Part shown: positions 51,592-58,125 of the stretch, piece after piece
How positions within the stretch are numbered: the first letter of the stretch is position 1
How the letters are laid out: each line of letters starts with the position of its first letter
NCBI GenBank assembly: GCA_039679385.1
Contig: JBDKVB010000053.1
Location: forward strand, 1 to 64,000
Length of the DNA stretch: 64,000 bases
Direction of reading: 5' to 3'
Origin: Armatimonadia bacterium
Lineage (GTDB): Bacteria; Armatimonadota; Zipacnadia; Zipacnadales; JABUFB01
The notes under the pieces: model-generated
Database searches by the model: none
Seen by the model: only the letters and a program-made list of their open reading frames with translations
Told to the model about the DNA's origin: nothing
Position numbers and translations under genes: made by a program

Positions 51592-51621
51592 TTTACACGA
51601 CCTCTGCGGCTGTGGTATCAT
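51592..51621 (+). promoter_or_regulatory. Promoter of the rpsO-pnp region
   Basis: TTTACA (51592-51597), an 18-base spacer ending in TGG, then TATCAT (51616-51621), an extended -10 promoter. It leaves a 140-base leader before rpsO. Confidence 0.7.
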
Positions 51622-51767: not shown

Positions 51768-52037
51768 ATGTCGTTGGCCAAGGACGATAAGGCCGCGATC
51801 ATTGAGAAGTACAGGGCGCACGAGTCGGACACGGGGTCGGCGGAGGTGCAGATTGCTCTCCTCACCGGGCGCATCGAGTACCTCACCAAGCACCTGCAGG
51901 AACACCGCAAAGACCACCACTCCCGCCGTGGGCTGCTCAAGATGGTCGGGCAGCGCAGAAGGCTCCTCAACTATCTGCGCAACACCAACATCGAGAAGTA
52001 CCGGGCGCTCATCGCCGATCTCGGCATCCGCCGCTAA
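51768..52037 (+). CDS. rpsO: 30S ribosomal protein S15
   Basis: An 89-residue primary rRNA-binding protein of the small subunit, binding the central domain of 16S rRNA. The conserved blocks are [36 protein letters not shown] and [12 protein letters not shown]. It starts at ATG 51768 behind GAGGTGG. It precedes pnp, the order common in many bacteria. The leader holds its own likely autoregulatory hairpin. Confidence 0.97.
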
Positions 52038-52050
52038 GTGTTGAAACAAG

Positions 52051-52079
52051 TCGCGGAGGCGATCTTTTCGCCTCCGCGA
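52051..52079 (+). terminator. Stem-loop after rpsO
   Basis: A perfect 12-bp stem (52051-52062 with 52068-52079) and a 5-base loop, 13 bases after the rpsO stop. No T-run follows; it may act as a partial terminator or mRNA end. A second hairpin (52090-52097/52106-52113, 8 bp) follows. Confidence 0.7.
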
Positions 52080-52134
52080 TATGTTACGTCTGCAGGCCTT
52101 TGCTTGCCTGCAGGCATCTACCAAGGGTCAGGAA

Positions 52135-52330
52135 GGGCGAGGGAGACGACGGGGAATCAGGGAAAGCAGGGGTTGAGTTGAGACACCCTCACGGGTGCAG
52201 CAGGCCCAAAGCAGACGGGTCTTTGCCTCGGCGGCACGCGCACTCCTCACGGGTACGTCAGCGAGACTGCTCCGCATGCGCAGCGCTCCTACCCCCTGTT
52301 TTCCCTGCTTCCTCGCACCGTCTCTCGCCC
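52135..52330 (+). promoter_or_regulatory. pnp: Long imperfect stem in the pnp leader
   Basis: Bases 52135-52172 can pair with 52293-52330 in a roughly 33-bp stem: GGGCGA/TCGCCC, GAGACG/CGTCTC, and a 15-bp run of 52158-52172 with 52293-52307 with one GU pair. A 120-base loop includes a small hairpin at 52184-52197. It ends 17 bases before AGGAGG of pnp. In E. coli and Streptomyces pnp leaders a double-stranded stem is cut by RNase III and limits PNPase levels; this stem is in the matching place. Confidence 0.7.
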
Positions 52331-52356
52331 GCTCCGACCAGTCCCAGGAGGACAGA

Positions 52357-54621
52357 ATGGTCCATAAGGTAAGCTGTGATTTTGCTGGACGAGAGCTGAC
52401 TTTTGAGGTCGGCAAGCTCGCACTACAATCCGACGCCGCTGTTGTGGTCACCTACGGGGACACCGTAGTCCTCGCCACCGCGAACGTGACCGATGAGCCG
52501 ATTCAGGCCAACTTCGTGCCGCTGCGGGTCGACTTCGAAGAGAAGATGTACGCCGTGGGTCGCATCCCGGGCGGCTTCTTCAAGCGTGAGGGCAGGCCCT
52601 CCGACGAAACCGTCATCATGGGTCGGTCCATCGACCGCCCGATTCGCCCGCTGCTCCCCGACGGTCTGCGCAACGACGTCCAAGTGGTCATCAACCCCCT
52701 GTCGGTTGAGTCGGACTCCTCGGTCAGTCTCGTTGCCATGATCGCCGGTAGCGCCGCGATGCACATCTCGCGGGTCCCCTTCGACGGCCCCTTCGGAGCC
52801 GCGCAGATCGGCCGCGTGGATGGCGAACTCGCTGTGAACCCAACCTTCGAGGCCCTGCGCGAGGGCAAGCTGAACGTGCTTGCCGCCTGCACCCGCGACG
52901 GGATTGTTGAGCTCGAAATGGAAGGCGACCAGGTCTCCGAGGCCACCCTGCGCGAGGCCCTCGAGATGGCCCACGCGGCCTCGCAGCCGGTCATCGACGC
53001 CATCGAAGAGCTCCGTCAGGTCTGCGGCAAGCCCAAGGCTGACTTCCCGCTGTGGGCGCCGGACCCGGCTATCGTCGACCTCGTCACCTCGCAGTTCGCC
53101 GACCGTGTCCGTGCCTGCCTCGACGCTCCGGACAAGGCGAGCCGCAATGCGGACACGGCAGCGGTCGTCAAGGACGTCGTCGCTGCACTGCCCGAGGAAC
53201 TGGCGGGCAAGGAGTTCGACGTCGAGTATACCGTCGAGAAGCTGCAGAAGAAGCGGCTTCAGGAGATGGTCCTGGACGAGGGGCGCCGCGTCGACGGTCG
53301 CACCTTCAACCAGGTACGGCCGATCACCTGCGAAGTTGGCTTCCTGCCTCGTGTGCACGGCTCCGGCCTGTTCACCCGTGGCGACACGCAGGTCATGACG
53401 GCGACGACCCTCGGCGCCTTCCGCGACCAGAAGCTCGTGCGCTCCCTCGACGAAGAGGAGTACACCCACTTCATCCACCACTACAACTTCCCGCCCTTCT
53501 GCACCGGCGAGGTCCGCGGTATGCGGTCCCCTGGTCGGCGCGAGGTCGGCCACGGCGCTCTTGCCGGGAAGTCCGTTGAGTACGTCATCCCTGAGGATGC
53601 GGACTTCCCCTACACCGTGCGTCTGGTCTCCGAGGTCATGGGCGGCGACGCCTCGACCTCCATGGCCAGCGTCTGCGCGTCCTGTCTGTCGCTGATGGAC
53701 GCCGGCGTGCCGATTAAGGCCCCGGTGGCCGGGATCTCCATCGGCCTGGTCCTGCGAGATTCCGAGAACTACCGGGTCTTCGCAGACATGCAGGCCATCG
53801 AGGACTTCCTCGGCCACATGGACTTCAAGGTGGCAGGCACCCGCGAGGGCGTCAACGCGATCCAGGTAGACACCAAGCTCACCCACCTGCCGCTGCAGGT
53901 CTGCTTCGATGCTCTCGACCTGGCCCGCGAGGCCCGGTTGGGCATCCTGGACATCATGGCGGAGACCATCCCGTATCCGCGCACCGAGCTTTCGCCCTAT
54001 GCGCCGCGCATGTACTCGGTGACCATCCCGACCGACAAGATCGGTATGGTGATTGGCCCTGGCGGCAAGAACGTGCGCAAGATCCAGGACGAGAACGAGG
54101 TCCAGATCGACATCGACGATACCGGCACCGTGTTCATCTTCGGTATGGATGGCGAGAAGGCCAATGCCGCACGTCAGATCATTGCCGACATGACCCGCGA
54201 GATCGCCGTTGGCGAAGTGTTCAAGGGTCGTGTGACCGGCACGACGGCCTTCGGTGCCTTCGTTGAGCTCATGCCCGGTCGCGAGGCGCTGGTGCACATC
54301 TCGCACCTGGCCTGGGAACACATCGCAAAGACCGAGGACATCGCCAAGGTCGGCGATACCATGGAAGTCAAGGTCATCGAGGTCGACGACGAGGGCAAGA
54401 TCCGCGCCAGCCGCAAGGAACTGCTTCCCCGACCGGCCGGCATCCCTGAGAGCAGTGGCGGCGGCAGCCGACCTCGTGGCGGTGGCGGCCCCTCCCGTGG
54501 TGGACGTGGCGGGTCCCACAGCGGCGGTTCGCGTGGCGGAAGCCCCCATGCTGGCGGAGAGGGCGGCGAGTTCGATGCCGGACGCGGCAAGTCCTACTTC
54601 CGCGAGAAGAAGCGCGACTAG
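52357..54621 (+). CDS. pnp: Polyribonucleotide nucleotidyltransferase (PNPase)
   Basis: A 754-residue 3'-5' phosphorolytic exoribonuclease, a core enzyme of RNA decay. Two RNase PH-like domains (about 8-220 and 310-540) flank a helical linker; the active domain has [28 protein letters not shown] domain (about 553-610: [14 protein letters not shown]) and an S1 domain (about 620-690: [15 protein letters not shown]) bind RNA. After S1 comes an unusual 55-residue Gly/Arg/Ser-rich tail ([15 protein letters not shown]). ATG 52357 follows AGGAGG and gives the usual N-terminus; the longer frame upstream overlaps the leader stem. Confidence 0.96.
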
Positions 54622-54676: not shown

Positions 54677-54808
54677 CCCACACAAAGGCGGGCAGGGATC
54701 AGCGGCGGTACGGGGAAATACCGGGGGGTGCAGAACGGGGTCGGCGAGCGGTGATACACTGAATGGTCGCGCGCGCAGTCTGATCGTGTGCGCATCTCGG
54801 AGGACGTC

Positions 54809-55699
54809 ATGCCCAGACTCGGTTACCTGCTTACCGCGATGGTGACCCCCTTTGATAGTGACCTGAAGGTCGACTACGACCGATTGGCCGCATTGTCCTG
54901 CAGGCTTGTCGACGAAGGCTCTGACGGGCTGGTAGTTGGAGGAACGACAGGCGAGTCACCGACCCTGTCGAAGGACGAAAAGCTGCAGATGTGCCGCGTG
55001 GTGCGGGAGGCAGTTGGCAGCGACGTGATCGTCGCTGCGGGGACAGGCGGGAACGATACCGCTGCCTCCATCGAGCTTACACGTGCTGCTACGGAACTGG
55101 GTATCCTCGACGCCGTAATGCTGGTGGGACCGTACTACAACAAGCCTCCGCAGGAGGGCTTCTACCAGCACTTCAAGGCCTGCGCTGCAGCTACCGACCT
55201 GCCTGTGATCCTGTACAACGTGCCGGGGCGCACGGGCAAGAACATCGAGGCGGCTACGGTCCTGCGGCTGGCGCACGAGGTTCCGAATATCGTTGCGGTC
55301 AAGGAAGCCTCGGGCGATCTGGTGCAGGTGAGCCGTATCTGTGCCGGAGCACCTGACGGCTTCGACGTCTACTCCGGTGCCGATGAGTTTACGCTTCCCA
55401 TGCTGGCGGTCGGCTCGGTCGGCGTCATCAGCGTGGTCTCGCATCTGGTCGGCCCGGATATGGCCAGGATGCTCCAGGCCTTCCACACGAAGGACACGGA
55501 GACGGCCTGGCGACTGCACCACAGGCTGCTGGACATGTTCGAGGCCTGCTTCCTGCCGTCGGGGAACCCCGCCTGTGTAAAGTACGGGCTGGAGGTTCTG
55601 GGCTTCCCTGTTGGCGGCTGCAGGCTGCCGATTGTCCCGCCCAGCGAAAAGGACAGCGCTCGGATCAAACAAGTCTGCGAAGACCTCGGGCTCCTCTGA
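54809..55699 (+). CDS. dapA: 4-hydroxy-tetrahydrodipicolinate synthase
   Basis: A 296-residue class I aldolase of lysine and diaminopimelate synthesis, condensing pyruvate with aspartate semialdehyde. GLVVGGTTGESPTLSKDEK holds the conserved Thr pair, LVGPYYNKPPQEGFYQHF the catalytic Tyr, LYNVPGRTGKNI the Arg, and IVAVKEASGD the Schiff-base Lys. GGAGG (54799-54803) selects ATG 54809. It is in the block with pnp and rnj, as in Firmicutes and Actinobacteria. DapA-like proteins can also be other aldolases, but this one keeps the lysine-pathway residues. Confidence 0.9.
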   Translation: MPRLGYLLTAMVTPFDSDLKVDYDRLAALSCRLVDEGSDGLVVGGTTGESPTLSKDEKLQMCRVVREAVGSDVIVAAGTGGNDTAASIELTRAATELGILDAVMLVGPYYNKPPQEGFYQHFKACAAATDLPVILYNVPGRTGKNIEAATVLRLAHEVPNIVAVKEASGDLVQVSRICAGAPDGFDVYSGADEFTLPMLAVGSVGVISVVSHLVGPDMARMLQAFHTKDTETAWRLHHRLLDMFEACFLPSGNPACVKYGLEVLGFPVGGCRLPIVPPSEKDSARIKQVCEDLGLL

Positions 55700-55752
55700 A
55701 GGATAGCCCACCCAGGCCGTCGCCTGCGTAGTCGACGGCCGACGACGGGGCC

Positions 55753-56334
55753 ATGAACCGACAGTCTTGTGCCAACCTGCTGGCTGAGATTGCACAGGAG
55801 GTGCAGTCCTGCGCGAAGTGTCCTCTCGCGCAGGGCCGTACCCTTGCGGTTCCCGGTGAGGGGCCACTGGACGCTCGAATCATGCTGATTGGCGAGGGCC
55901 CCGGGTTCCAGGAGGATCAGCAGGGCCGGCCCTTTGTGGGGCCTGCCGGTGAGTTGCTCAATCGGCTGCTGGGACTTGCCGGGTTGCGTCGCGAGCAGGT
56001 GTTCATCACCAACATCGTGAAGTGTCGGCCACCGAACAACCGGGAGCCCCTGCCGGAGGAGGTGGCCCAGTGCCGCGACTTCCTCAACGGTCAGATTGCG
56101 CTCGTCAACCCGAAAGTCATCTGCACCCTGGGCCGTCCTGCCATGCACACTTTGGTCGATGCGACCGCCTCGATCACCCGCGAGCACGGCAAGCCCCGGA
56201 GGGTTGACGGGATCCTCTGCGTGCCCCTGTACCATCCTGCCGCCGCGCTGCACCGGCAGGATCTAGGACCTCAGTTGGAAGCCGACATGCTGAAGCTGAA
56301 AACGATTCTTGAGCAAGCGCTGGGCCAGGCCTGA
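55753..56334 (+). CDS. Family 4 (iron-sulfur) uracil-DNA glycosylase
   Basis: A 193-residue UDG of family 4, which removes uracil from DNA. The 4Fe-4S ligands are Cys 20, 23, 91 and 107, with typical spacing. Motif 1 is GEGPGFQEDQQGRPFVGPAG and motif 2 contains PLYHPAAALH (active-site His). Family 4 enzymes are common in thermophilic and Terrabacteria-type lineages. It is 53 bases after dapA and probably co-transcribed with dapA and rnj. Confidence 0.92.
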   Translation: MNRQSCANLLAEIAQEVQSCAKCPLAQGRTLAVPGEGPLDARIMLIGEGPGFQEDQQGRPFVGPAGELLNRLLGLAGLRREQVFITNIVKCRPPNNREPLPEEVAQCRDFLNGQIALVNPKVICTLGRPAMHTLVDATASITREHGKPRRVDGILCVPLYHPAAALHRQDLGPQLEADMLKLKTILEQALGQA

Positions 56335-56391
56335 CGGATCAGGCCCCGGGCTGGTGGATACTGGACCAAGGCCCGGCGTATCACCTCTGCT

Positions 56392-58125
56392 GTGAATACC
56401 ACTATGAGTAACCTACCAGATGCACCGTCGTCGTTGCGCGTCATTCCCTTGGGCGGAGTTGGGGTGATGGGCAAGAACATGATGGTCCTCGAACAGCGCG
56501 GCGAGCTACTGATCGTCGACTGCGGCCTCATGTTCCCCAACGAGGATACCCCCGGGGTAGACCTTGTGATTCCCGACCTGACCTATGTGCTCGACAACGC
56601 CGAGCGAGTTGCCGGGGTCGTGCTGACCCACGGGCATGAAGACCACATCGGCGGCCTGCCCTTCCTGCTGGAGCAGATGCCTGCCCTGGTGTGGGGGACT
56701 CCGCTGACGCTGGGCCTGCTGGAGAACCGGCTCTCTGAGTTCGAGCCGTCAGCCGGCACTGAACTGATTCCCGTCTCGGCCGGCGACACCGTGCAGGTCG
56801 GGAGCTTCACGGTCGACTTCTTCCGGGTCAACCACTCGGTGCGCGACGGCGTTGGTCTGGGCATCCACACCGACCAGGGCCTCGTGGTCCACACCGGTGA
56901 CTTCAAGTTCGACCAGACCCCGGTCGACGGGATACACACCGACTTCCAGGCACTGGCACAGTTCGGCCTCGAGGAGCCCCTGGCGCTGTTGTCCGACTGC
57001 ACCAACGTGGAGAGACCGGGCTTCGCCGGTTCGGAGTTGGAGGTGGGGCAGAGGTTCGAGGAACTATTCGCCCAGGCCAAAGGTCGTATCATCGTTACCT
57101 GCTTTGCTTCGCACATCGCCCGGATCGAGCAGGTCTTCAAGTACTCAGAGAAGGTTGGCCGCAAGGTCGCCATCGCTGGGCGCAGCATGGTGCGGAATGC
57201 TCGCGTGGCTCGCGAACTGGGGTATCTGTCGGTGCCCGAGGGCACCGAGGTGCCGCTGGAGGTCGCCTCGGAGATGCCACCCGAGCAGGTAACGATTATC
57301 GCTGCCGGTAGCCAGGGCGAACCCTTCTCGGCTCTTGCGCGCATGGCGGTTGGCGAGCATCGTTGGATTGAGGCCGGCGAGGGCGACACGGTCATCATCT
57401 CGGCCAGCGCGATTCCCGGCAACGAGAGCATGATCCTGCGCAACATCGACAACCTGTTCCGCAATGGCGCGCACGTGATCTACGGTCGCGACGAAGGGGT
57501 TCACGTCTCCGGTCACGGCAACCGCGAGGAACTGCGGCTGATGCTGAGCCTGACGCACCCGCAGTATGCTGTGCCGATCCACGGCGACTACCGTCATCTG
57601 GTGCTGTACAAGGACCTCGCCGAGGAAATGGGCATACCCGAGGAACGCGTGCTCATCATGGAACTGGGGATGGCCTACGAGTTCAAGAACGGCCAGGTGC
57701 GACAGGTCAGCGGTATCCCCAGTGGCGCAGTCAACGTCGATGGTCTCGGCGTGGGCGATGTCGGCGATGTGGTGATCTCCGATCGACAGGCCCTTGCCGA
57801 GGAGGGCATAGTGCTGCCCGTGCTGGCTCTCGATGCCACGACCCATGAGATCGTGGGCGGGCCGGACATCTACTCGCGCGGCTTCGTGTACATGAATGAG
57901 TCGGAGGACCTCATCGCCGACCTCAAGGAGACCGTGCTGTCGATCTATGACAAGCAGGCCGCCGAGGGCCCGATTGACCCCGAGCGGCTGTACGACAGAC
58001 TACGCTCAGGCATTGGAAAGCGCGTCGACCAGCTCACCGGAAGGCGCCCGATGGTCGTCCCGGTCATCCTCCCGATCGGTGAGGAGGCGCCGCGGGAGAT
58101 GGACAGCGACGCCTTCCTGCCATGA
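56392..58125 (+). CDS. rnj: Ribonuclease J
   Basis: A 577-residue MBL/beta-CASP RNase with 5'-3' exonuclease and endonuclease activity, central to mRNA turnover. The metal site is LTHGHEDHIGG (His 80, 82, 85; Asp 84). FVDFFRVNHSVRDGVGLGI and VHTGDFKFDQTPVDG supply further ligands; VIISASAIPGNESMI and HVSGHGNREELRLMLSL are beta-CASP motifs, and PIHGDYRHL a closing His. C-terminal residues of about 460-555 form the small J-type domain. The start is GTG at 56392. Confidence 0.94.
   Translation: MNTTMSNLPDAPSSLRVIPLGGVGVMGKNMMVLEQRGELLIVDCGLMFPNEDTPGVDLVIPDLTYVLDNAERVAGVVLTHGHEDHIGGLPFLLEQMPALVWGTPLTLGLLENRLSEFEPSAGTELIPVSAGDTVQVGSFTVDFFRVNHSVRDGVGLGIHTDQGLVVHTGDFKFDQTPVDGIHTDFQALAQFGLEEPLALLSDCTNVERPGFAGSELEVGQRFEELFAQAKGRIIVTCFASHIARIEQVFKYSEKVGRKVAIAGRSMVRNARVARELGYLSVPEGTEVPLEVASEMPPEQVTIIAAGSQGEPFSALARMAVGEHRWIEAGEGDTVIISASAIPGNESMILRNIDNLFRNGAHVIYGRDEGVHVSGHGNREELRLMLSLTHPQYAVPIHGDYRHLVLYKDLAEEMGIPEERVLIMELGMAYEFKNGQVRQVSGIPSGAVNVDGLGVGDVGDVVISDRQALAEEGIVLPVLALDATTHEIVGGPDIYSRGFVYMNESEDLIADLKETVLSIYDKQAAEGPIDPERLYDRLRSGIGKRVDQLTGRRPMVVPVILPIGEEAPREMDSDAFLP

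Follow-up and report, generated by a model that had tools for sequence, protein, structure and literature searches.

The long stem that stands before pnp in the window (the whole 64,000-nt stretch of DNA analysed, part of a 5.6-Mb draft genome) is a real and conserved cis-regulatory RNA element, present in 38 of the 39 genomes of its order for which the leader is assembled, and its covariation is strong enough to warrant a new RNA family. The most likely reading is that this lineage has its own version of pnp leader control. On balance we think it probable that the element, which acts in cis on pnp and places a long stem with a conserved core just before the ribosome site, serves as an RNase III/PNPase feedback leader. 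It lies in the 319-nt gap between rpsO (ribosomal protein S15; 51768–52037, + strand; TIGR00952, 132 bits, over cut-off) and pnp (polynucleotide phosphorylase, PNPase; 52357–54621, + strand; TIGR03591, 841 bits).

Direct counting pairs 32 of the 38 positions in the arms 52135–52172 and 52293–52330 (29 Watson–Crick and 3 G–U), close to the 33 or so proposed in a first-pass annotation of this DNA; the 15-bp run that it described is there, joining 52158–52172 with 52293–52307, as are two hairpins upstream. The arms had been judged too long for chance, and indeed, when the intergenic region was dinucleotide-shuffled 500 times, the best ungapped pairing of two 38-nt arms averaged 25.9 pairs and never exceeded 30, none of the 500 reaching 32. 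The gap as a whole folds at −166.6 kcal/mol (z = −9.1; 0 of 100 shuffles as low). Unlike these ungapped-arm and energy measures, which both single out the window's stem, a strict longest-helix measure does not (22 bp, with 10 of 50 shuffles as long), because an internal loop lies below the core.

The predicted fold, read 5′ to 3′ on the + strand, begins directly after rpsO with a hairpin whose main stem has 13 bp (52045–52085; a hairpin stands at the same place in G002 and G003), followed by a second of 10 bp (52088–52115). The 5′ strand of the lower stem (52126–52150) pairs with its 3′ strand (52315–52339), so that the stem reaches lower than first described, 52126–52144 joining 52321–52339. 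Above it, arm matching in relatives defines a conserved core, with a 5′ arm GGGGAATCAGGGAAAGCAGGGG at 52151–52172 and a 3′ arm CCCCTGTTTTCCCTGCTTCCTC at 52293–52314, a fixed mismatch (52157 × 52308) and two fixed G–U pairs (52152–52313 and 52166–52299). Between the arms lies an apical domain with further hairpins (52173–52292), not conserved in sequence and very variable in length among relatives. A small hairpin, GTCC-CAGGA-GGAC (52341–52353), holds the Shine–Dalgarno (SD) sequence AGGAGG (52346–52351); within f1, the window's own family, all three genomes that have the leader keep it, and it is weak in the window genome.

We compared 41 genomes of the order, an uncultured group within the Armatimonadota (G000–G040, G000 being the window genome), with relatives from its class and phylum. 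When folded, the relatives' gaps show the same long stem before pnp, which extends to one sister-family genome (G041); G001 and G012, whose leaders are not assembled, fall outside the 39 counted above, and a pattern match in G012 was discarded, having no second arm and looking like coding sequence. Both arms occur in order about 40–63 nt before the pnp start in members of families f1, f2, f3, f4 and f6 and in G041, and G007, of f5, also carries the stem. The core reads approximately GGGGAAnCAGGGAAAGCAGG / CCTGTTTTCCCTGnTTCCTC and contains a single fixed mismatch as well as G·U pairs that are likewise fixed. A covariance model, R1, in whose training alignment the window's 120-nt loop was replaced by a short artificial one, matches 31 genomes of the order and G041; under strict filters it misses seven members with long apical loops (G000, G002, G003, G010, G027, G034 and G036), which were read directly by arm match. 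Outside the class, R1 matches were not at pnp wherever pnp was located. The arm pattern is found a single time per genome, and that at pnp, if a low-complexity stretch in G037 and isolated chance matches are left aside. In two genomes (G031 and G020) the element precedes pnp even though no rpsO lies within 2.5 kb upstream; since the stem stays with pnp when rpsO is not adjacent, the element belongs to pnp. The sole exception in the order is G016, whose stem arms keep 12 of 19 core positions and whose stem has diverged or been replaced. The apical part of that leader stem (L007, G016:C68:32500-32596) matches a palindromic repeat that is dispersed through the G016 genome in many partial copies; perhaps a repeat-derived stem is here a natural replacement of the conserved one.

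The first-pass annotation had proposed looking for compensatory changes and for a stem at this place in relatives, and its idea passes on both counts: the stem keeps its place across the order, and covariation there is strong. In an alignment of 35 distinct sequences, where a constant GAAA links the two arms purely for alignment purposes, pairing holds in 82.6% of cells and 20 of 32 pairs change on both sides; the covariation score is 0.330 in the true register against 0.122–0.174 in registers slid by 1–3, and double changes between standard pairs, counted on a protein tree, number 31 against 3–10. Sequence is conserved in the core as well: genomes share 77% identity there, compared with 44% for the third codon positions of rpsO and 37% for the lower stem, where sequence is not conserved and pairing is partly kept, tree-counted double changes being present. 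Within the core, position +6 stays mismatched (25% paired), the foot position, −1, is unpaired in most sequences (22% paired), and positions +1 and +15 are mostly G–U. Only in RNA with the sequence of the pnp strand do such G–U pairs add stability, and in 29 of 36 cases the core forms a stabler duplex in sense than in antisense orientation; together, the fixed G–U pairs and the stabler sense duplex argue for an RNA on the pnp strand.

The closest parallels are the rpsO–pnp hairpins of E. coli and Streptomyces, which RNase III cuts and in whose hosts PNPase levels rise without RNase III (PMC10126417, PMC5371410, PMC3839596). The window resembles the E. coli locus in gene order, in having a long stem in the gap near the pnp start—the E. 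coli leader, folded here, forms a comparable one—and in the presence of both RNase III and PNPase. Yet the core shows no sequence similarity to the E. coli leader (at best 9 of 19 mismatches in each arm), and across this order the core keeps its sequence too. The S. coelicolor gap, under RNase III-dependent control, likewise contains a stem with internal-loop features (PMC10126417), the sequence comparison made here having covered the E. coli leader; in S. coelicolor RNase III cuts at a 4/4 internal loop, whereas the order's core has a single 1 × 1 mismatch and an unpaired foot position. Another non-coding RNA, SraG/PsrO, is annotated at the same place in the E. coli gap, but on the opposite strand, whereas here the conserved pairs favour the pnp strand. 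The window yields no Rfam 15 match at gathering score, the best sub-threshold matches lying far below cut-off, and in the collection of papers searched none joins Armatimonadetes, RNase III and pnp. The best reading of these comparisons is an element analogous to the E. coli and Streptomyces leaders and not detectably homologous to them.

The lineage had been characterized as one that uses RNase J, and an RNase J gene (beta-CASP ribonuclease; TIGR00649, 550 bits, over cut-off) does lie downstream of pnp at 56392–58125 (+); the description is incomplete, as RNase III and RNase E/G are encoded too. RNase III is found in 60 of the 61 genomes searched, including the window genome (TIGR02191, over cut-off), whose gene for it lies at G000:C143:27113-27739, so that the enzyme needed for a classical, E. 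coli-like mechanism is present there, and RNase E/G in 25 of 26. In an RNase III/PNPase feedback leader, RNase III would cut the stem in the rpsO–pnp read-through or the pnp transcript, PNPase would strip the freed 5′ strand with its 3′–5′ activity, and the remaining message would be decayed or poorly translated, so that PNPase limits its own synthesis. Whereas cleavage has been demonstrated for the E. coli leader, we infer it for this order's stem, along with the trimming by PNPase and the feedback.

How loss of the 5′ strand might affect translation is suggested by the related families. In f2, f3, f4 and f6 a hairpin between the stem and the start codon closes the SD. For most f3, f4 and f6 members a different pairing is predicted when the leader is complete: the anti-SD strand joins the strand upstream of the core and so extends the long stem. 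Cutting off or shuffling the 5′ part closes the ribosome site in f3, f4 and f6 leaders; at most 2 of 60 shuffles leave the SD as open as the native sequence does in 12 of 15 f3, 3 of 6 f4 and 4 of 7 f6 leaders. All families were tested for this switch. It was not seen in the window's family f1 (the predicted chance that the window's SD is free is 0.54 native, 0.63 cut and 0.53 shuffled). Nor was it seen in f2, since every form tested leaves the site closed. The switch is thus predicted for part of the order and hypothetical for the rest. Applied to the feedback leader, it would mean that the 5′ strand holds the anti-SD strand in f3, in f4 and in the majority of f6, but not in f1, and that removing the 5′ strand lets the anti-SD close the pnp ribosome site. 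This three-strand arrangement would offer a concrete way for the removal of a strand to switch translation. More tentatively, and at odds that we put well below even, the element could belong to a distinct class of nuclease-operated RNA switch. The stem's 5′ strand would then be a decoy, holding the anti-SD off the pnp ribosome site until an RNase III cut and PNPase trimming remove it and close that site, and PNPase's own 3′–5′ activity would be the signal sensed; if so, the near-invariant core would be the order's dedicated cleavage or binding signature.

A simpler function is conceivable, though we hold it to be rather unlikely: the stem may be a static stabiliser or insulator that shields the pnp message against RNase J or RNase E/G acting from the 5′ side, or makes the fates of rpsO and pnp mRNA independent, with no feedback by PNPase. 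Both of those nucleases are encoded, the very stable stem adjoins the ribosome site, and hairpins also stand directly after rpsO, all as a stabiliser would have it; such a role nevertheless leaves unexplained the conserved core sequence, its fixed mismatch and G–U pairs, and the mutually exclusive anti-SD pairing of f3, f4 and f6. The same core poses a question for the feedback leader, for it keeps sequence beyond what a generic RNase III substrate needs, and another binder is therefore possible. Carried further, this consideration would make the stem an operator at which a sequence-specific RNA-binding protein regulates pnp translation, no cleavage being involved; the protein could be PNPase through its KH/S1 domains, S15, or some unknown dsRNA-binding protein. 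This reading draws on the near-invariant core with its fixed mismatch inside a helix and on the SD hairpin adjoining the core in most families. We regard it as improbable: no candidate binder was identified, the persistence of the element before pnp without an adjacent rpsO weakens the case for S15, and in G016 a long stem persists whose sequence retains little of the core.

Transcription signals bear on a further alternative. A consensus scan finds a promoter-like site before rpsO (TTTACA-18-TATCAT, 51592–51621, + strand; 10 of 12 matches, 0.1 expected) and no comparable site for pnp in the window's rpsO–pnp gap, a difference from E. coli, which has a pnp promoter in that gap (PMC10126417). 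In f6, 7 of 8 leaders carry a TTG-N20-TA-N3-T site, mostly TTGCAA-N17-TACAAT, 106–140 nt before the core (the leaders listed for it being L027, L028, L031 and L113–L116); from its sequence, the TTGCAA...TACAAT site is probably a separate pnp promoter. A terminator scan of the + strand found none. That the region is a transcription terminator or attenuator between the two genes, as hairpins directly after rpsO might suggest, is accordingly very unlikely: no U-tract follows any of the stems on the + strand, the hairpin next to rpsO included, and the conserved core stops 42 nt short of the start codon, with mixed sequence after it. Least credible of all is a dispersed palindromic repeat (REP/MITE) or DNA operator lying here by chance, as the long near-palindrome, the repeat-like apical part of the G016 stem and weak R1 matches in G062 and G047 might hint, for the element is single-copy, in one orientation and always before pnp, it keeps its G–U pairs, and its arms are separated by spacers ranging from a few to more than 120 nt, a variability that does not fit a DNA operator. 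Those two weak matches (G062, L164; G047, L167) proved on close examination to be unrelated near-perfect intergenic hairpins away from pnp; each occurs at several places in its genome, as dispersed repeats unrelated to the element.

Feedback by PNPase through a leader stem is understood from a few model bacteria, and here a stem unrelated in sequence holds the same post throughout an uncultured order, which suggests that controlling pnp through a leader stem is common and is achieved with several different sequences. Stems of 32–39 bp, longer than in any of 50 shuffles, also occur in the rpsO–pnp gaps of Ruminococcus and relatives (L086, L090, L098) and of Chloroflexota (L056, L079). They share the architecture and are unrelated in sequence; the order's core was looked for in these Chloroflexota and Bacillota leaders and not found. 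Within the phylum, a genome of another family (G052, L124) has an rpsO–pnp gap stem 98 nt before pnp with partly core-like arms (CAGGGTTCAGGGCAAGGAG / CTCTTTCCCCTGACCCCTC), on which basis it is possibly a distant relative of the element.

Around the element, an alternative pnp start at an in-frame upstream GTG (52195) was dropped, since its frame would cross the 3′ arm and the start in relatives corresponds to 52357, with a Shine–Dalgarno sequence. A search of phages with the pnp DNA gave no match. On the same strand after pnp (54788–58125, +) follow dapA, an uncharacterised open reading frame (55753–56334) that by eye resembles a uracil-DNA glycosylase, and the RNase J gene, so that two exoribonuclease genes stand near each other. 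Antisense to pnp runs an open frame of 708 codons (52423–54549, − strand), probably an effect of GC-rich codon usage.
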